Part shown: one piece after another, positions 5,478-39,432 of the stretch | How positions within the stretch are numbered: position 1 is the first letter of the stretch | Layout: every line of letters starts with the position of its first letter | Assembly: GCF_003651225.1 (NCBI RefSeq) | Contig: NZ_RCDB01000002.1 | Coordinates: 248,001-312,000 of the forward strand | DNA length: 64,000 nucleotides | Direction: 5' to 3' | Origin: Microbacterium telephonicum | GTDB taxonomy: Bacteria > Actinomycetota > Actinomycetes > Actinomycetales > Microbacteriaceae | Notes under the pieces: generated by a model | The model's input: the letters and a program-made list of their open reading frames with translations, nothing else | Database searches by the model: none | What the model was told of the DNA's origin: nothing | Translations under genes and position numbers: made by a program

Positions 5478-6599
5478 GTGGCTCTGTTCGACGAGAACGT
5501 CGAGGTCCGTCCTGCGCCCCGCAAGCGTCTGTCGCGCGGCGCCGTCGTCGGTCTGTGGGCGCTGTCGATCGCCCTCGTGGCGATGCTGCTGCTCACGATC
5601 CTGCCCACCGGGTTCGTCATCCAGCAGCCCGGCCCCGTCTTCGACACGCTCGGCACCGCCGAGAACGCCGACGGCGACGACGTGCCGCTCATCTCGGTCG
5701 AGGGTGCCGAGACCTACCCCACCGACGGCGCGCTCGACCTGCTCACGGTGCAGGTCGTCGGCAGCCGCGAACGCACACCGTCGTGGATCGAGCTCGCCGG
5801 CGCATGGTTCGACCCGTCGCGCGCCGTGCTCCCGATCGACGACGTCTTCCCGCAGGGGCAGACCACCGAGCAGCGCCAGCAGCAGAGCGCCGCGCAGATG
5901 GTCGACTCGCAGAAGGAGGCGACGGCGGCCGCCCTCACCGAGCTGGGCTACGACGTCGAGCCGATGGTGCGCGTGTACGCCCTCACCGACGATTCCGCCG
6001 CCGAAGGCGTGCTGCAGCCCGACGACATCATCCGCACCGCCGACGGTCAGGACATCACCGACACCGAGCAGCTGCGGGCGATCGTGAACGCCGACGACGG
6101 CGCACCGGTCGAACTCGGCATCGAGCGCGACGGAGAGCAGCTCACCGAGACCGTCACCCCGAAGCAGACCGAGGTCGACGGCACGACGACGTGGCTGCTG
6201 GGCATCACGACGATGCACGACTTCACGTTCCCCATCGACGTCACGATCCAGCTCAACAACGTCGGTGGACCGAGCGCGGGGATGATGTTCGCCCTCGGCA
6301 TCATCGACACCCTCACGCCCGAGGAGATCACCGGCGGGGAGCGGATCGCGGGAACCGGGACGATCGACGCGGCCGGCGAGGTCGGACCCATCGGCGGCAT
6401 CCGACAGAAGCTGTACGGCGCGAAGGATGCCGGCGCCCGGTGGTTCCTGGCGCCGGAGAGCAACTGCGACGAGGTCGTCGGCCACATCCCCGACGGGCTT
6501 CGGGTGTTCTCGGTGGCGACGCTCGACGACGCCCTCGACGCACTGTCGGCGATCCGCGGCGACGGCGACCTCGACGCGCTGCCCACCTGCACCGGCTGA
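5478..6599 (+). CDS. PDZ-domain Lon-like serine protease (YlbL/S16 family)
   Basis: A 373-residue membrane-anchored protease: one N-terminal transmembrane helix (about residues 22-45, GLWALSIALVAMLLL), a PDZ domain in the middle (around LQPDDIIRTADGQ) and a C-terminal Lon-type proteolytic domain. The Lon Ser/Lys dyad is visible as Ser266 in GGPSAGMMFALG and Lys311 in GIRQKLYGAKDAG. There is no AAA+ domain, as expected for the YlbL group. The domain should face the outside of the membrane. GTG start behind GAGAGGTCTCCT. A 69-base gap precedes UPF0182, which has its own promoter. Confidence 0.93.
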   Translation: MALFDENVEVRPAPRKRLSRGAVVGLWALSIALVAMLLLTILPTGFVIQQPGPVFDTLGTAENADGDDVPLISVEGAETYPTDGALDLLTVQVVGSRERTPSWIELAGAWFDPSRAVLPIDDVFPQGQTTEQRQQQSAAQMVDSQKEATAAALTELGYDVEPMVRVYALTDDSAAEGVLQPDDIIRTADGQDITDTEQLRAIVNADDGAPVELGIERDGEQLTETVTPKQTEVDGTTTWLLGITTMHDFTFPIDVTIQLNNVGGPSAGMMFALGIIDTLTPEEITGGERIAGTGTIDAAGEVGPIGGIRQKLYGAKDAGARWFLAPESNCDEVVGHIPDGLRVFSVATLDDALDALSAIRGDGDLDALPTCTG

Positions 6600-6656
6600 G
6601 CCGTCTGCCAAACCGGGAATATGCCCCGCCGGGGATCTGCCCGTAGGGCGCCCGCC

Positions 6657-6662
6657 TAGGAT
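6657..6662 (+). promoter_or_regulatory. Putative leaderless -10 element of the UPF0182 gene
   Basis: TAGGAT ends 6 bases before the GTG start at 6669. With transcription starting about 6-8 bases downstream of the -10, the mRNA would begin at or next to the start codon. No Shine-Dalgarno sequence is present. The same spacing recurs elsewhere in this window. Confidence 0.5.
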
Positions 6663-6668
6663 GGACGG

Positions 6669-9587
6669 GTGACCTCGACCTCTGCACCGACCCCGGCCAC
6701 AACCCCCAGTCCGTTCCGACGCGCCGTCGGCATCACGCTGGCGATCATCGCCGCGCTCGTGGTGGGCTTCTTCATCTTCGCGACGCTGTTCGCGGACTGG
6801 CTCTGGTACGACCAGCTCGGCTTCGACAAGGTGCTCGTCACCCAGTGGGTCGCGCGCGTGGCGATGTTCGCGATCGGCTTCCTCGCGATGGCCGTCCCGG
6901 TGTTCCTCGCCATCCAGCTGGCGTACCGGCTGCGCCCCGTCTACGCGCGGCTGAGCTCGCAGCTGGACCACTATCAGGAGGTCGTCGAGCCGCTGCGCCG
7001 TCTGGCGATGTGGGGCATCCCGATCTTCTTCGGGTTCTTCTCCGGATTCGCCGCCTCGGCGCAGTGGGAGACCGCATGGCTGTGGGCGAACCGGGTCTCG
7101 ACCGGCACCCTCGACCCCGAGTTCGGCCTCGACACCGGCTTCTACCTGTTCGAGCTGCCGTTCTACACGGCCGTGCTCGGCTTCGCCTCGGCGGTGCTGC
7201 TCGTGTGCCTCGGCGTCACCGTGCTGGTGGCGTACCTGTACGGCGCCGTGCGCATCGGGCAGCGCGAGCTGCGCATCTCGAAGTCGGCCCGCATCCAGCT
7301 GGCCGTCATCGCCGGCATGTACCTGCTGGTGCAGGCGGTGAGCCTGTGGCTCGACCGCTACCGCACGCTCGTCGAGAAGGGCGAGCGCATCACGGGCGCC
7401 GGCTACACCGACGTGCACGCCATCATCCCCGGCCTCACGATCCTCTCGATCGCCGCCGCGATCGTCGCGCTGCTGTTCTTCGTCACCGCGATCATCGGCC
7501 GCTGGCGCTTCCCGCTCATCGCGACCGGGCTCCTCATCATCTCGTCGCTGCTGCTGGGCGTGGCCTACCCGTGGTTCGTCAACCAGTTCCAGGTCGTACC
7601 GAACCAGGAGAGCTACGAGAGCGAGTACTACCAGCGCAACATCGACGCCACGAAGGCGGCTTACGGCATCGACGGCCTCGAGAAGGAGGACTTCGAGGCG
7701 GTCACCGACGTCGAGCCCGGCCAGCTGCGCGCCGATGCCGACACGACGGCGTCGATCCGCATCATGGACCCGGCGATCATCCCGCCGACGGTGCGCCAGC
7801 TCGAGCAGTACCGCTCGTACTACAAGTTCCCCGCGACCCTCGACGTCGACCGCTACGAGCTCGACGGCCAGTCGCAGGACACCGTCGTGGCCGTGCGCGA
7901 GCTCAACCTCGACCAGCTCGGGGCGGCCGCGTCCTGGTACAACACGACGCTCGTCTACACGCACGGCTACGGCATGGTCGCCGCCAAGGGCAACGACCGC
8001 ACGAGCGACGGCAACCCCGTCTTCCTCGAGCGCGGCATCCCCACCGCCGGCGACCTGACGACGCAGGAGGAGTACGAGCCGCGCATCTACTTCGGCGAGT
8101 CGTCGCCGACGTACTCGATCGTGGGCGCCCCCGAGGGCGCCACCGACATCGAGCTGGACTACCCGCGCGGCGAGGACGGCGCGGCGCAGACGAAGACGAC
8201 CTTCACGGGCGACGGCGGCCCGAACGTGGGCAACATCTTCAGCCGCCTCATCTACGCGCTGAAGTTCCAGTCCACCGACATCCTCTTCTCGGATGCCGTC
8301 AACGACCAGTCGCAGATCCTGTACGACCGCAACCCCGTCGACCGGGTGCAGAAGGTCGCGCCCTACCTCGAGCTCGACAACGACCCGTACCCGTCGGTCG
8401 TCGACGGGCGCATCGTCTGGATCGTCGACGGCTACACGCTGAGTGCGAACTACCCGTACTCGTCGATCGTGAGCCTGCGCGACGCCATCAGCGACACGAC
8501 CAACGCGCAGCCGCGCGTGGCGCTGGACGACATCAACTACATCCGCAACTCGGTGAAGGCCACCGTCGACGCGTACGACGGCAAGGTGACCCTGTACGCG
8601 TGGGACGAGACCGACCCGCTGCTGCAGGCGTGGCAGAAGGTGTACCCGGCCACGGTCGAGCCGATCTCGGAGATGTCGGCCCAGCTCATGAGTCACGTGC
8701 GCTATCCGACCGACCTCTTCAAGGTGCAGCGCGCCATGCTCGGCACCTACCACGTCGACGATGCGGCCTCGTTCTACGCCCGGGACAACGCGTGGAAGAC
8801 GCCGAACGACCCGATCGAGCGCGACCTGCTGCAGCCGCCGTACTACCTGACGCTGCAGATGCCGGGTCAGGAGGCTCCGACGTACTCGATGTTCACGTCG
8901 TTCATCCCGGCCGCCGAGGGCGACGACTCCCGCAACGTGCTCATGGGCTACCTCGCGGTGGACTCGAACGCGGGCTCCGAGGCCGGAGTGAAGGGGGAGG
9001 GGTACGGCAAGCTGCGGATGCTGGAGATCAGCGCCGACGTGAGCGTGCCCGGCCCCGGTCAGGTGCAGAACACGTTCAACTCGAACGAGTCGATCTCGGC
9101 CCAGATCAACCTGCTCAAGCAGGGCCAGTCCGAGGTGCTCAACGGCAACCTGCTGACCCTTCCGGTCGGCGGCGGTCTGCTCTACGTGCAGCCCGTGTTC
9201 GTGCAGGCCTCCAGCGGCACCCAGCTGCCGACGCTGCGCAAGATCCTCGTCGCGTTCGGTGACGAGGTGGCCTTCGAGGACACGCTGCAGGAGGCCCTCG
9301 ACGCGCTGTTCGGCGGCGAGTCCGGAGCCAACACCGGTGACCACAACGTGCAGCCGACGCCCGGCGCGACTGAGACCCCGACGCCCGGGGAGACGACCGA
9401 CCCCGGGACGGGCGGCACCGGCGGCACCGACACGAGCGTCGCCTTCCAGGCAGCGCTCCAGGAGGCCCAGCAGGCGATGGCGGCCCGCGACGCCGCGTTG
9501 AAGTCCGGCGACCTGACCGCGTTCGCCACCGCAGACGAGGCTCTCACCGCCGCGGTGGAGAAGCTGCTCGCCCTGCAGGGGGAGTGA
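6669..9587 (+). CDS. UPF0182 family large membrane protein
   Basis: A 972-residue protein. The first ~320 residues hold seven or so transmembrane helices (for example ITLAIIAALVVGFFIFATLF and IGFLAMAVPVFLAIQLAY). They are followed by a large, predicted extracytoplasmic region with many aromatic and acidic residues (for example FQVVPNQESYESEYYQRNI). The C-terminus is a Pro/Thr/Gly-rich linker (TPTPGETTDPGTGGTGG), then an Ala-rich helix. UPF0182 proteins are near-universal in Actinomycetota; a firm function is not known to me. The start is GTG with no ribosome binding site, consistent with a leaderless message. A strong hairpin follows the gene. Confidence 0.93.
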   Translation: MTSTSAPTPATTPSPFRRAVGITLAIIAALVVGFFIFATLFADWLWYDQLGFDKVLVTQWVARVAMFAIGFLAMAVPVFLAIQLAYRLRPVYARLSSQLDHYQEVVEPLRRLAMWGIPIFFGFFSGFAASAQWETAWLWANRVSTGTLDPEFGLDTGFYLFELPFYTAVLGFASAVLLVCLGVTVLVAYLYGAVRIGQRELRISKSARIQLAVIAGMYLLVQAVSLWLDRYRTLVEKGERITGAGYTDVHAIIPGLTILSIAAAIVALLFFVTAIIGRWRFPLIATGLLIISSLLLGVAYPWFVNQFQVVPNQESYESEYYQRNIDATKAAYGIDGLEKEDFEAVTDVEPGQLRADADTTASIRIMDPAIIPPTVRQLEQYRSYYKFPATLDVDRYELDGQSQDTVVAVRELNLDQLGAAASWYNTTLVYTHGYGMVAAKGNDRTSDGNPVFLERGIPTAGDLTTQEEYEPRIYFGESSPTYSIVGAPEGATDIELDYPRGEDGAAQTKTTFTGDGGPNVGNIFSRLIYALKFQSTDILFSDAVNDQSQILYDRNPVDRVQKVAPYLELDNDPYPSVVDGRIVWIVDGYTLSANYPYSSIVSLRDAISDTTNAQPRVALDDINYIRNSVKATVDAYDGKVTLYAWDETDPLLQAWQKVYPATVEPISEMSAQLMSHVRYPTDLFKVQRAMLGTYHVDDAASFYARDNAWKTPNDPIERDLLQPPYYLTLQMPGQEAPTYSMFTSFIPAAEGDDSRNVLMGYLAVDSNAGSEAGVKGEGYGKLRMLEISADVSVPGPGQVQNTFNSNESISAQINLLKQGQSEVLNGNLLTLPVGGGLLYVQPVFVQASSGTQLPTLRKILVAFGDEVAFEDTLQEALDALFGGESGANTGDHNVQPTPGATETPTPGETTDPGTGGTGGTDTSVAFQAALQEAQQAMAARDAALKSGDLTAFATADEALTAAVEKLLALQGE

Positions 9588-34659: not shown

Positions 34660-35390
34660 CCGACATCGTCCGCGCCGACGGCCGTACCCCCGACCAGCTG
34701 CGACCGGTCGTGATCGAACGCGGCTGGAGCGCCCACGCCGAAGGCTCGGCGCTCATCTCCTTCGGCGGCACCAAGGTGCTGTGCACCGCCTCGTTCACCG
34801 CGGGAGTCCCGCGCTGGCTGACCGGCAAGGGCAAGGGCTGGGTCACCGCCGAGTACGCGATGCTGCCGCGCGCGACCAACAGCCGCAACGACCGCGAGTC
34901 CATCAAGGGCCGGGTCGGCGGACGCACCCACGAGATCTCGCGTCTCATCGGGCGGGCCCTCCGCGCCGTCGTCGACACGAAGGCCCTCGGCGAGAACACG
35001 ATCGTCATCGACTGCGACGTGCTGCAGGCCGACGGCGGCACGCGCACCGCCGCGATCACGGGCGCCTACGTGGCCCTCGCCGACGCGATCGAGTGGGGTC
35101 GCGCGAAGGGGCACGTGCCCAAGAACGCGAAGGCGCTCATCGATTCGGTCGCCGCCGTCTCGGTCGGCATCATCGACGGCGCACCGATGCTCGACCTCGC
35201 CTACGTCGAGGACGTGCGAGCCGAGACCGACATGAACGTCGTCGTCACCGGCCGTGGGCTCTTCGTCGAGGTGCAGGGCACCGCGGAAGGTGCGCCCTTC
35301 GACAAGCGGGAGCTCGACGCCCTGCTGGAGCTCGGCGTGGCCGGGTGCGCCGACCTGCGTGAGGCCCAGACCTCAGCCCTGGGGGAGTGA
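34656..35390 (+). CDS. rph: Ribonuclease PH
   Basis: A 244-residue phosphorolytic 3'-5' exoribonuclease that trims tRNA 3' ends. Diagnostic segments are [31 protein letters not shown], the RNA/phosphate site [20 protein letters not shown] and [17 protein letters not shown]. Full length, no truncation. ATG in the murI stop; rdgB follows after a 4-base gap. Confidence 0.97.
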
Positions 35391-35394
35391 TCCG

Positions 35395-35994
35395 GTGACT
35401 TCGCGCATCGTGCTGGCGACCCACAACCCGCACAAGGTCGAGGAGTTCGCCGCGATCGTCGCCGCGACGCGCCCCGACATCGAGGTCGTCGGCTACGACG
35501 GCCCCGAGCCGGTCGAGGACGGGACGACGTTCGCCGACAACGCGCTCATCAAGGCGCGCGCGGCTTGCGCCCACACGGGACTCCCCGCCCTCGCCGACGA
35601 CAGTGGCATCTGCGTGGACGTGCTCGGCGGTGCGCCGGGGGTGTTCTCCGCCTACTGGGCGGGTCACCGCAAAGACGCGCGGGCGAACCTCGACCTGCTG
35701 CTGGACCAACTCGCCGACATCGCCGACCCGCACCGCTCCGCGCAGTTCGTCTCCACGATCGCCCTCGTGCGTCCCGACGGCACGCACACCGTCGTCGAGG
35801 GGACCTGGCCGGGCCGGCTCGCGCGGGAAGCGTCCGGCGGTGGGGGATTCGGATACGACCCGATCTTCATCCCGAACGGCCAGCCGGCGGGAGCCGAGCG
35901 CACGGTGGGCGAGTGGTCGGCCGACGAGAAGAACGCCGACTCGCACCGCGCGCGGGCGTTCACGGCGTTGGCGCCCCTGCTCGAGGCACTCTGA
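35395..35994 (+). CDS. rdgB: dITP/XTP pyrophosphatase (RdgB/HAM1)
   Basis: A 199-residue non-canonical purine NTP pyrophosphatase. Signatures: VLATHNPHKVEEFAAIV, TFADNALIKARAA, ALADDSGICVDVLGGAPGVFS, and FGYDPIFIPNG. It removes dITP/XTP from the nucleotide pool. GTG start 4 bases after the rph stop. Confidence 0.96.
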   Translation: MTSRIVLATHNPHKVEEFAAIVAATRPDIEVVGYDGPEPVEDGTTFADNALIKARAACAHTGLPALADDSGICVDVLGGAPGVFSAYWAGHRKDARANLDLLLDQLADIADPHRSAQFVSTIALVRPDGTHTVVEGTWPGRLAREASGGGGFGYDPIFIPNGQPAGAERTVGEWSADEKNADSHRARAFTALAPLLEAL

Positions 35995-36029
35995 TCCCGG
36001 TCGCGTCCGCTCGGGACCGCACCCGCGAG

Positions 36030-36059
36030 TGAGAATCGTTCCGTTCTGAGACTCGTTCC
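36030..36059. promoter_or_regulatory. Paired operator-like boxes upstream of the cation diffusion facilitator
   Basis: Two near-identical boxes, TGAGAATCGTTCC (36030-36042) and TGAGACTCGTTCC (36047-36059), 12 of 13 identical, period 17. They sit in an otherwise short intergenic region between rdgB and the CDF transporter gene. The first half (TGAGAATC) resembles the TGAtAATC half-site of Fur/Zur-family operators. The boxes lie 41-70 bases upstream of the putative -10. Role as a metalloregulator site is inference. Confidence 0.45.
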
Positions 36060-36099
36060 CGAGTGGCGCGACGTGGCCCCGGACACGGGGCGATCGCCC

Positions 36100-36105
36100 T
36101 AGCCT
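36100..36105 (+). promoter_or_regulatory. Putative leaderless -10 of the CDF transporter gene
   Basis: TAGCCT ends 6 bases before the GTG at 36112; no ribosome binding site between. Confidence 0.48.
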
Positions 36106-36111
36106 CGAAGC

Positions 36112-37020
36112 GTGCACGACCACGCTCCCACCGGCATCCGCGGCGCCGGCAGCCGCCGGCTGCTGTCGATCTCGCTCGCCCTCACCGCCACGGTGCTGGT
36201 CGTGCAGCTCGTCGGTGGCGTGCTCACCGGATCGCTCGCCCTGCTGGCGGATGCCGCGCACATGTTCGCCGACGCGTCGGCGCTCGTGATCGCCCTCATC
36301 GCCTCGATCGTCGCGGCCCGCCCCGCCGATGCGCGCAACACGTACGGCTACCGTCGTGCCGAGGTGTTCGGCGCCCTCGTGAACGCGATCATCCTCATCG
36401 GGCTGTCGGTCGGCATCGCCGTCGAAGGCATCGGGCGGCTGCTGCGGCCGACCGAGGCCGAGGTCGACGGCGGTCTGATGCTCGTCATCGCGGTCGTCGG
36501 TCTCATCGCCAACGCGGTGTCGCTGTGGCTGTTGAGCGCGGCGCAGCGCACGAGCATCAACGTGCGCGGCGCTTACCTGGAAGTGCTGGGAGACCTGCTC
36601 GGCTCGGCGCTCGTGATCGTCGCGGCGATCGTCATCGCGACCACGGGCTGGCTGCCCGCCGACGCGCTGGCGTCGCTGCTGATCGCGGCACTCATCGTGC
36701 CGCGGGCGGTGACGCTGCTGCGGGAGGTGGTGTCGGTGCTCGCCGAGACCGCGCCGCGCGGCACCGACGTGCACCAGATCCGGGAGCACCTGCTGTCGGC
36801 CGACGGCGTGAGCGACGTGCACGACGTGCACGTGTGGCAGCTCACACGCGGCGCCCCGGTGTTCACCGCGCACGTGGTGGTCGACCCGGCTGTGCTCGCG
36901 CGCGGTGCGGGGCCGCTGCTGACGCGTCTGCAGTCGTGCCTGGCCGATCACTTCGACGTCGAGCACTCCACGATCCAACTCGAGCCGGCCGGACATCGCG
37001 AGCACGACGCGCACGTCTGA
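36112..37020 (+). CDS. Cation diffusion facilitator family metal exporter (CzcD-like)
   Basis: A 302-residue CDF protein with six membrane helices. Metal-site residues are visible in helix II (LLADAAHMFADASAL: the HxxxD pattern) and helix V (YLEVLGDLLGSALVIVA: DxxxD-like). The cytoplasmic C-terminal domain contains VSDVHDVHVWQLTRG, the conserved metal-binding region. It exports divalent metals such as Zn(II) by proton antiport. A His-rich loop is absent, as in shorter CzcD proteins. The paired boxes upstream suggest metal-responsive control. Confidence 0.92.
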   Translation: MHDHAPTGIRGAGSRRLLSISLALTATVLVVQLVGGVLTGSLALLADAAHMFADASALVIALIASIVAARPADARNTYGYRRAEVFGALVNAIILIGLSVGIAVEGIGRLLRPTEAEVDGGLMLVIAVVGLIANAVSLWLLSAAQRTSINVRGAYLEVLGDLLGSALVIVAAIVIATTGWLPADALASLLIAALIVPRAVTLLREVVSVLAETAPRGTDVHQIREHLLSADGVSDVHDVHVWQLTRGAPVFTAHVVVDPAVLARGAGPLLTRLQSCLADHFDVEHSTIQLEPAGHREHDAHV

Positions 37021-37041
37021 GGCGCCGCGGACGGTTCCGCC

Positions 37042-39432
37042 TCACTCCGGGCGCACGCGGTCCGGCGAGACGTCCGGGCGCAGACCGCGCCACCGTGCGT
37101 GGCGCAGCGCGCCGCTCGGGGTCGCCTCGGCGTACTCCACCTCGCCGACCAGCTCGGGCCGCACCCACAACGCGTCCCGGGCATCCACGGCGGGAACACC
37201 CCGCAGCGGGTTCTCGTCGGTACGCAGGGGCGCGAGCACATCGCCGAGACGCCGCAGCTCGGCATCCGTGAACCCGGTGCCCACCCGTCCGACGTAGCGC
37301 AGGCCGTCGGCGTCGGGGATCCCCAGCAGGAGAGAACCGATCTGTCCACCGCGCGTGCCCCTGCCCGGCCGGATCCCCGCGATGACGACGTCCTGCGTGC
37401 GGGTGAGCTTGACCTTGAGCCACTCCTCGCTGCGCTCGCCCGGTCGGTAGCGGCCGCCGGGGCTCTTCACGACGACACCTTCGAGCGAGAGCGCGCGCGC
37501 CGTCGCGAGCGCGTGGTCGACGTCGTCGGCGACCGGCGGCACCTCGATGCCGTGCCCCGCGTGCCCGGCGACCCGCTCGAGCAGTGCCCGACGCTCGCGC
37601 AAGGGGCGGCCGGTGACGTCGTCCCCGCCCGCCTGCAGCAGGTCGAAGAGATAAAGGCGCACCGGGGCGCGTTCGGCGGCGCGGGCGATATCCCGCGGCG
37701 TGGTGAGGTGGATGCGGTGCTGCAGCAGGGGGAAGCTCGGTCGCCCCGACGCGTCCAGTGCGACGATCTCGCCGTCCAGCAGCAGCGGCGCTGCGCCCAG
37801 GTCGGCGGCGCCGGCGGTCAGCTCGGGATAACGCTCGGTGATGTCGGTGCCCGAGCGGGCGCGCAGCCGCAGCGACGAGCCGTCCCACAGGGCGAAGGCG
37901 CGGATGCCGTCCCACTTGAACTCGACCCACGGCTCGCCCCACGCCGCCGCGCGGGTGCGGGCGTAGGCGGGCGTCGCCGTCGTCGCCAGCATGGGTGCCG
38001 GCGGGGCGGCCGGGATGCCCGGGGGAGGCACCGGCTCGGCGGGGGCAGCACGGGCGCGCCGGTCGGCGGGGGCCGCATCCGTCTTCATCCGGTGCAGGAG
38101 CCACTGCGACTTCTCGCCGTCGCCGGAGGTGCGGATGAGCGCGAACCGTCCGGTCCCGAGAGGCCCGTCCGGCGCACCCGTCGCGGTGAAGATGACCTCG
38201 TCGGCGCGCCACTTCTCGGCGTGATACGTGCCGTGGTCCCAGACGCTCATGTGACCGGCGCCGTACTCCCCGGCGGGGATCTCGCCGGCGAACGTCAGAT
38301 ACTCCAGCGGATGCGGTTCGGTCATGACGGCCAGGTGGTTGCGGGCGGCGTCGTCGGGGATGCCGCGCGGCACCGCCCAGCTCACGAGCACGCCGTCGCG
38401 CTCCAGCCGCAGGTCGTAGTGCAGTCGGCGCGCATGATGTTCCTGCACGACGAAGCGCGGCTCGCCGTCGCCGGCAGCAGCGGACGCGTCGCGCTCGGGC
38501 ATCGGCTCGGGGGTGCGGTGCGCCGAGCGTTTGGCGAGGTACGAGTCGAGGGGCAGGGCGAGGGCGGTGAGGCCGCGGAGCGGATCGATCCCCGCGGCCA
38601 GCCTTGCGAGCACCTCGTCGAAGCGCAGGTGCGCCAGGTGCGGATCATCCAGCTCGTCCCACGTGCGCGGTGCGGCGACGGTCGGTTCGGGACGTCCCCG
38701 CAGCGAGTAGGGCGCGATCGTGGTCTTCGAGCCGTTGTTCTGGCTCCAGTCGAGGAACACCCGTCCCGCCCGCACCGCCTTCGCCATCTGGCTGACGACG
38801 AGGTCGGGATGGTCGGCTTCCAGCAGGCGGGCCAGCTCCTTCGCGAAGGCCGAGATGTCGTCGCTGGAGCGCGTCCCGTCCAGCGGCGCGTACAGGTGGA
38901 TCCCCTTGCTGCCGCTGGTCACCGGATAGGCGTCGAGACCGACATCGGCCAGCAGGGCGCGGGCGAGCCGGGCGACCTCGGCGCATTCGGGCAGGCCCAC
39001 CCCCGGTCCCGGATCCAGGTCGAGCACGAGCCGGTCCGGCGCCCCGCGGTCGCCCTCGGGGGTGAAGCGCCACTGCGGCACGTGCAGTTCGAGGCTCGCG
39101 ATCTGCGCGAGATGCAGGAGGGTGGGCAGGTCCTCGACGAGCGGATAGTCCTTCGTGCCGGAGGAGTGGGCGATCGGCATCCGCCTGATCCAGGCCGGAG
39201 CGCCGCGCTCGAGATCCTTCGCGAAGAACGGTTCGTGGTCGGTGCCCTCGGGCCAGCGCTTGCGCGTCACCGGGCGTCCGGCGATCGGGGGGAGCAGGGC
39301 GGGGGCCACGCGCCTGTAGTAGTCGATCACCTCGCCCTTGGTGGTGCCGGTGGCGGGGTAGAGGACCTTGTCGAGATTGGTCAGGCGCAGGCGCCTGCCC
39401 TCCACCCGCACCTCCGCCGAGTCCGCCGCCAT
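37042..39432 (-). CDS. ligD: Multifunctional NHEJ DNA ligase D (polymerase-phosphoesterase-ligase)
   Basis: A 796-residue LigD in the mycobacterial domain order. Residues ~10-290: primase-like polymerase with catalytic DxD in LVLDLDPGPG (Asp138, Asp140) and SGSKGIHLYAPL. Residues ~316-440: 3'-phosphoesterase (FVVQEHHARRLHYDLRLE, VPRGIP, WDHGTY). Residues ~480-790: ATP-dependent ligase with the lysine-adenylation motif FKWDGIRAF (Lys496) and later LEGVVVKSPGGRYRPG. It repairs double-strand breaks with Ku, which is encoded divergently 70 bases away. The ATG is probably leaderless. Confidence 0.95.
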   Translation of the reverse strand: MAADSAEVRVEGRRLRLTNLDKVLYPATGTTKGEVIDYYRRVAPALLPPIAGRPVTRKRWPEGTDHEPFFAKDLERGAPAWIRRMPIAHSSGTKDYPLVEDLPTLLHLAQIASLELHVPQWRFTPEGDRGAPDRLVLDLDPGPGVGLPECAEVARLARALLADVGLDAYPVTSGSKGIHLYAPLDGTRSSDDISAFAKELARLLEADHPDLVVSQMAKAVRAGRVFLDWSQNNGSKTTIAPYSLRGRPEPTVAAPRTWDELDDPHLAHLRFDEVLARLAAGIDPLRGLTALALPLDSYLAKRSAHRTPEPMPERDASAAAGDGEPRFVVQEHHARRLHYDLRLERDGVLVSWAVPRGIPDDAARNHLAVMTEPHPLEYLTFAGEIPAGEYGAGHMSVWDHGTYHAEKWRADEVIFTATGAPDGPLGTGRFALIRTSGDGEKSQWLLHRMKTDAAPADRRARAAPAEPVPPPGIPAAPPAPMLATTATPAYARTRAAAWGEPWVEFKWDGIRAFALWDGSSLRLRARSGTDITERYPELTAGAADLGAAPLLLDGEIVALDASGRPSFPLLQHRIHLTTPRDIARAAERAPVRLYLFDLLQAGGDDVTGRPLRERRALLERVAGHAGHGIEVPPVADDVDHALATARALSLEGVVVKSPGGRYRPGERSEEWLKVKLTRTQDVVIAGIRPGRGTRGGQIGSLLLGIPDADGLRYVGRVGTGFTDAELRRLGDVLAPLRTDENPLRGVPAVDARDALWVRPELVGEVEYAEATPSGALRHARWRGLRPDVSPDRVRPE

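Follow-up and report, generated by a model that had tools for sequence, protein, structure and literature searches.

Putative tandem Zur boxes upstream of a CDF exporter gene of Microbacterium telephonicum, in a promoter layout conserved among relatives

The intergenic region upstream of a CDF-family metal exporter gene in Microbacterium telephonicum contains two near-identical repeats that dimers of Zur, the zinc sensor, quite probably bind, and zinc-bound Zur is predicted to activate the exporter gene and to repress znuA. Under this mechanism, both repeats would bind dimers of Zur, which is encoded next to znuACB; zinc-bound Zur would sit just upstream of a leaderless CDF promoter and help RNA polymerase initiate, so that the exporter would be made when zinc is plentiful, and the same zinc-bound protein would block the znuA promoter, where the box overlaps the promoter. 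Three observations support this prediction, namely, the match of the repeats to a matrix derived from znuA boxes, the conservation of the site in relatives, and the fixed distance between the site and the promoter; Zur binding and activation are what we infer from them.

The repeat copies, TGAGAATCGTTCC (positions 36030-36042, + strand) and TGAGACTCGTTCC (36047-36059, + strand), are identical in 12 of 13 positions with a period of 17 bases, and both lie within the 117-base gap that separates the stop codon of a ham1-like gene (35994) from the GTG start codon of the CDF gene (36112); the original prediction gave the same positions and gap length for them. In the 3.1-Mb genome, exact TGAGAMTCGTTCC is confined to these two copies. 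The CDF gene is flanked by the ham1/rdgB-like gene on one side and by a convergent ligD-like gene on the other. The -10-like promoter previously placed at position 36100 also stands, given that the TANNNT pattern is conserved in orthologs, and because TAGCCT lies 6 bases before the GTG codon, the CDF transcript is probably leaderless, with the start site deduced from the -10 element. A scan of positions 35900-36200 yielded no sigma-70 -35/-10 pair, no clear -35 element and no terminator, and no RNA family reached the gathering score in positions 35300-37300.

Table 1 Features of the CDF gene and its upstream region.
Feature	Position	Strand	Remarks
Zur box copy 1 (putative), 7-1-7 frame TGAGAATCGTTCCGT	36030..36044	+	-82 from start codon; 9.7 bits
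Zur box copy 2 (putative), TGAGACTCGTTCCCG	36047..36061	+	-65; 9.4 bits
TTCCCGAGT, counterpart of the conserved TTCCCGACT of relatives	36056..36064	+	TTCCCG frame conserved in orthologs
-10 hexamer TAGCCT	36100..36105	+	TANNNT conserved in orthologs; 6 bases before start codon
CDF-family metal exporter gene, zitB/czcD-like, GTG start	36112..37020	+	PF01545, PF16916, TIGR01297
ham1/rdgB-like gene, upstream, start approximate	35389..35994	+	PF01725, E 1.1e-59

The gene at 36112-37020 encodes a CDF transporter (PF01545, E 5.9e-43; PF16916, E 2e-13) that exceeds the cut-off of the TIGR01297 CDF model, the ZitB equivalog model being second and under its cut-off (239.9 vs 408 bits); the exported metal would be zinc. 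In the fifth membrane helix, this protein carries Glu (EVLGD) at the site occupied by His (HVLGD/HVMGD) in SLC30A1 (zinc) and in SLC30A10 (named a calcium/manganese antiporter), and the EV.GD form is present in 79 of 81 CDF orthologs, the other two being unparsed.

The presumptive regulator is a Zur-like protein encoded beside znuACB in this genome. Its best solved relatives are 3mwm (E 3.7e-39), which we take to be the Zur of Streptomyces coelicolor, 7vo0 and others, and 2o03 (M. tuberculosis FurB). In an alignment with 3mwm inspected by eye, the HHHH stretch, both CxxC pairs and the equivalents of C79 and H36 are retained. All NCBIfam models score under their cut-offs for this protein, with the Fur model first and the Zur model third.

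Using the znuA boxes of the genus, we constructed a Zur matrix from 21 sites, none of them from a CDF gene; loci L070-L091 were scanned and 21 of the 22 were kept, L091 (another family, without a good box) being left out and L092-L099 (fragments or other families) remaining unscanned. Scored with this matrix, the two copies come first and second among all 15-mers of the window, that is, the whole 64-kb stretch of DNA analyzed, with 9.7 and 9.4 bits followed by 8.8 bits for the next site, compared with 22.6-28.7 bits for the znuA boxes themselves. Each copy matches 7 of the 11 scored letters of the published consensus tGaNNatSatNNtCa, and in most relatives, the site matches it better. Copy 1 combines a good left half and center with a poor right half, and agrees with TGANAATCGTTCTCA over the first 12 bases before diverging.

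The zinc uptake genes of this genome carry the palindromic form of the motif. Exact TGANAANSNTTNTCA occurs just twice in the genome, with five further places matching it at one mismatch. One occurrence, TGATAATCGTTCTCA (reverse complement TGAGAACGATTATCA), is upstream of znuA, which is followed by ABC-transporter genes and zur, and ends 19 bases short of the znuA start; the other, TGAAAATCGTTCTCA, separates an aztA-like gene from a divergently oriented aztB-like gene. The original prediction proposed a genome-wide search for the motif near metal genes and took its absence from such genes as a counterargument. This absence seemingly holds for the exact 13-mer, which occurs nowhere else, and does not hold for the palindromic TGANAANSNTTNTCA, which marks both znuA and the aztA/aztB-like locus. 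The latter (L068, contig G000:C4, approximately 5511-8341) appears to be an azt-like zinc uptake locus with the exact Zur box between the divergent genes; the AztB model is over its cut-off, the AztA model just under, and the AztD-like protein scores weakly.

Taken alone, the repeat is a weak signal because a 12/13 direct repeat with a period of 13-59 was found in 233 of 17,094 random 117-base blocks (first-order Markov sequence with the composition of the window). Likewise, the count of the single 13-mer motif in the window is not above chance in a shuffle test, with 2 matches at up to 2 mismatches compared to 2.27 expected, and at least 2 in 70 of 100 shuffles. These counts, along with the lower scores of both copies compared to most sites in relatives, are compatible with a chance repeat in a GC-rich intergenic region, functionless in this species, where an ancestral Zur site would have decayed. 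We nevertheless consider this explanation very unlikely, given that two sites of at least 9.4 bits on the znuA-derived matrix occurred together in none of 34,187 simulated blocks, that copy 2 is located where the nearest relative has its box, and that the -10 element and the TTCCCG frame are kept. Single sites with such a score are expected by chance about 50-70 times per genome (1.5e-5 to 2.35e-5 per position across 3.1 Mb), so that the case depends mainly on conservation in relatives.

Conservation was assessed in 80 orthologs from named records, the best of 392 relatives and mostly labelled Microbacterium; Microbacterium sp. W1N, with 87% identity, is the nearest. In 76 of these 80 orthologs, a Zur box upstream of the CDF gene is the highest-scoring site of the locus. 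The same region contains the top site of the whole locus in 27 of the 30 loci of another set, including the locus of this genome; the counts are not independent, given that some genomes belong to both sets and that the species are related. Two further loci from the same genus, L125 and L126, contain the box and are outside the counts. Among the 80 orthologs, the Zur box is absent in L168 and L190, and in the 30-locus set, L028 lacks a box and L006 has only a poor one elsewhere. In L028 and L168, the TAGCCT -10 element is kept in the absence of a Zur box, and the space after the upstream gene in L028 looks short.

The layout of the region is largely fixed among these 80 orthologs (the best of 392). 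Of them, 61 have the start of the best box at -71, and 78 have it between -77 and -65; the box is followed by TTCCCGACT or a near variant, with TTCCCG at -55 to -57 in 77 of the 80. In 76 of the 80 orthologs, 6 bases separate TANNNT from the start codon, and in three the distance is 7 bases; among the 76 loci in which both elements were found, the distance from TTCCCG to the -10 element is 44 bases in 71 and 43 in five. The stretch between these two elements is little conserved (30 loci). One ortholog with the same promoter layout, L187 (JACEFY010000099.1), is a Microbacterium-type CDF locus with 76% identity on a contig labelled Stenotrophomonas maltophilia, perhaps a contamination of that assembly. 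A degenerate search with GAATCANNNTCATTCCCGA, allowing up to 2 mismatches, matched 27 of 33 genus genomes (one match for the reversed control), but mixes CDF sites with others and was not used.

Within this conserved layout, the tandem arrangement is a small local variant. Measured upstream of the frame that ends in TTCCCG, the offset of the best box is 6 bases in 66, 12 in seven, 0 in four and undefined in three of the best 80 of 392 relatives, and the two boxes of this genome are at offsets 0 and 17. Copy 2 is the positional equivalent of the box TGATACTCATTCCCG in the nearest relative, L128, which has a single box at offset 0 and no site at the position of copy 1, so that copy 2 looks ancestral and copy 1 looks added. 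A pair with the 17-base spacing, at up to 3 mismatches, was detected in 1 of 366 genus genomes, namely, this one. Both window copies have poor right half-sites and are weaker than the best site of 75 of the 80 relatives. L197 and L198, which both bear the name Microbacterium oxydans, differ by 6 bp in the position of the best box.

Comparable sites are present outside the genus. When the 40 upstream regions that match best in other genera of the family are scored, 28 reach at least 9, for example, TGAGAACGGCACTCATTCCTATCTAG in L238, and by eye, 4 more have poorer but recognizable sites and 8 have no clear site. A composite, TGANAAYN5TSATTCCYRWCT, searched with up to one mismatch, has 32 matches distributed over 31 of 120 family genomes, and its reversal has none. 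Each of the 19 exact matches is just before the CDF gene, as are 6 of the 13 one-mismatch matches; the other 7 are elsewhere. The composite was drawn from the other-genera loci, so this count tests specificity rather than discovery. It has no match in this genome or in 88 others of the 120, and the putative boxes of this genome are a split variant of it. In other families of the order, a score of at least 9 is reached by 2 of 18 regions upstream of CDF genes. The Zur-like boxes that were originally proposed upstream of a metal exporter gene are supported by an independent znuA matrix, by conservation in the orthologs and in other genera, and by the Zur-like protein beside znuACB.

The sites might merely resemble Zur boxes and instead serve another regulator, for example, a second protein of the Fur family or an exporter repressor of the ArsR type. 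A second FUR-domain protein is indeed encoded in this genome (L069, contig G000:C3, 3792-6602), an ArsR-family gene precedes the CDF gene in all 3 inspected loci of the 18 from other families, and the conserved TTCCCGACT is poorly explained by the Zur matrix, on which this frame mostly scores below 6 bits. We consider this alternative unlikely, because a matrix made from znuA boxes alone recovers the site as the best of its locus in 76 of 80 orthologs (best 80 of 392), and because the second FUR-domain protein adjoins a peroxidase-domain (KatG-like) gene and scores best against the PerR model, under the cut-off, which makes a peroxide sensor the likelier function of that protein.

Zur is mainly a repressor, and repression of the exporter gene, such that zinc-bound Zur would lower export at high zinc, would draw on the same matrix and ortholog evidence for the boxes. 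The position of the boxes argues for the predicted activation. The znuA boxes overlap the promoter, covering the -35 region and the spacer, with a TANNNT-like -10 element after the box (by eye); 19 of 21 begin with TTGA when the preceding base is included (by eye). The boxes of the CDF gene, in contrast, span -82 to -51, farther upstream than the -35 region, and in relatives the distance from box to -10 element is rigid. A box over the znuA promoter suggests a repression layout, whereas a box upstream of the CDF core promoter at a rigid distance suggests an activation layout, in which Zur would touch RNA polymerase. Furthermore, shutting down an exporter in excess zinc would be physiologically odd, and the S. 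coelicolor counterpart is activated (PMC5472717). Repression by Zur therefore appears quite unlikely. The original prediction held an activator and a metal-released repressor to be equally possible; compared with the znuA boxes, the rigid upstream position favors activation by zinc-bound Zur.

The zinc-bound Zur of S. coelicolor is a repressor at znuA and an activator at the CDF gene zitB, where the Zur box is 8 nt upstream of the -35 element and the footprint, from -78 to -40, grows upstream with zinc (PMC5472717). The arrangement in Microbacterium is similar in that a 7-1-7 box of the tGaNNatSatNNtCa type is located upstream of the promoter of a CDF exporter gene, and the footprint spans about the same distance as the block here. 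In contrast to zitB, which has a 50-nt leader in the same source, the Microbacterium CDF gene is probably leaderless, the Microbacterium relatives have the conserved TTCCCGACT between the box and the promoter, and this genome has two separate boxes 17 bases apart, recognized from sequence alone. On 33-bp zitB DNA, several Zur dimers are bound next to one another at a single site (PMC11077047); neighboring dimers might likewise cooperate in Microbacterium, on a different site layout. The zinc ligand H36 of S. coelicolor Zur aligns with a histidine in the Zur-like protein of this genome, whereas D37 and H41, the suggested dimer-dimer contact, align with A and E.

Two other actinobacterial systems can be compared. 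Mycobacterium smegmatis zitA encodes a zinc-induced CDF zinc exporter, resembling the zinc induction proposed here, that is controlled by the release of the ArsR-type repressor SmtB (PMC7174638); unlike zitA, the gene studied here has ham1-like and ligD-like neighbors. The Zur regulon of Corynebacterium glutamicum and other actinobacteria likewise combines a palindromic Zur motif (21 bp there) with zinc uptake targets, and the main text of that report contains neither of the terms exporter and cation diffusion (PMC2823685). Among the matches listed for open papers, a few of which mention both Zur and Microbacterium, no title concerns Zur in Microbacterium.

A less likely possibility is that Zur dimers occupy a lattice of slots in the operator, set on a promoter frame that is itself rigid, with activation by a dimer array rather than by one fixed box, and that the usual overlapping pair is split here into two separate boxes. 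The strongest slot would then move between species in steps of approximately 6 bp (0, 6 and 12, and here 0 plus 17), with TTCCCGACT and the -10 element staying put. Side peaks at 6 bp were considered as proof of such a lattice and rejected, given that znuA boxes also peak at +6 (mean -2.4 bits, vs -2.8 for the CDF gene; at -6, -16.2 vs -5.6 bits), so that part of this signal is the internal repeat of the motif itself, and the 6-bp stepping may reflect nothing else. A tree count indicates at least 8 slot changes and leaves the doubt about the lattice standing; the tree was a quick one, with 32 of 78 inner branches open and no shuffle control, and it left out 3 loci without a defined slot and treated this genome as slot 0.

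Most likely, then, the arrangement upstream of the CDF gene is one already known from Streptomyces that recurs in the sequences of many relatives of M. telephonicum. As a prediction from sequence, and with a fixed promoter layout, the present analysis would carry the Zur-driven activation of a zinc exporter beyond Streptomyces, into Microbacterium and further Microbacteriaceae. Natural variants, such as L197 and L198, would be suitable for studying how the position and number of Zur boxes relate to the response.
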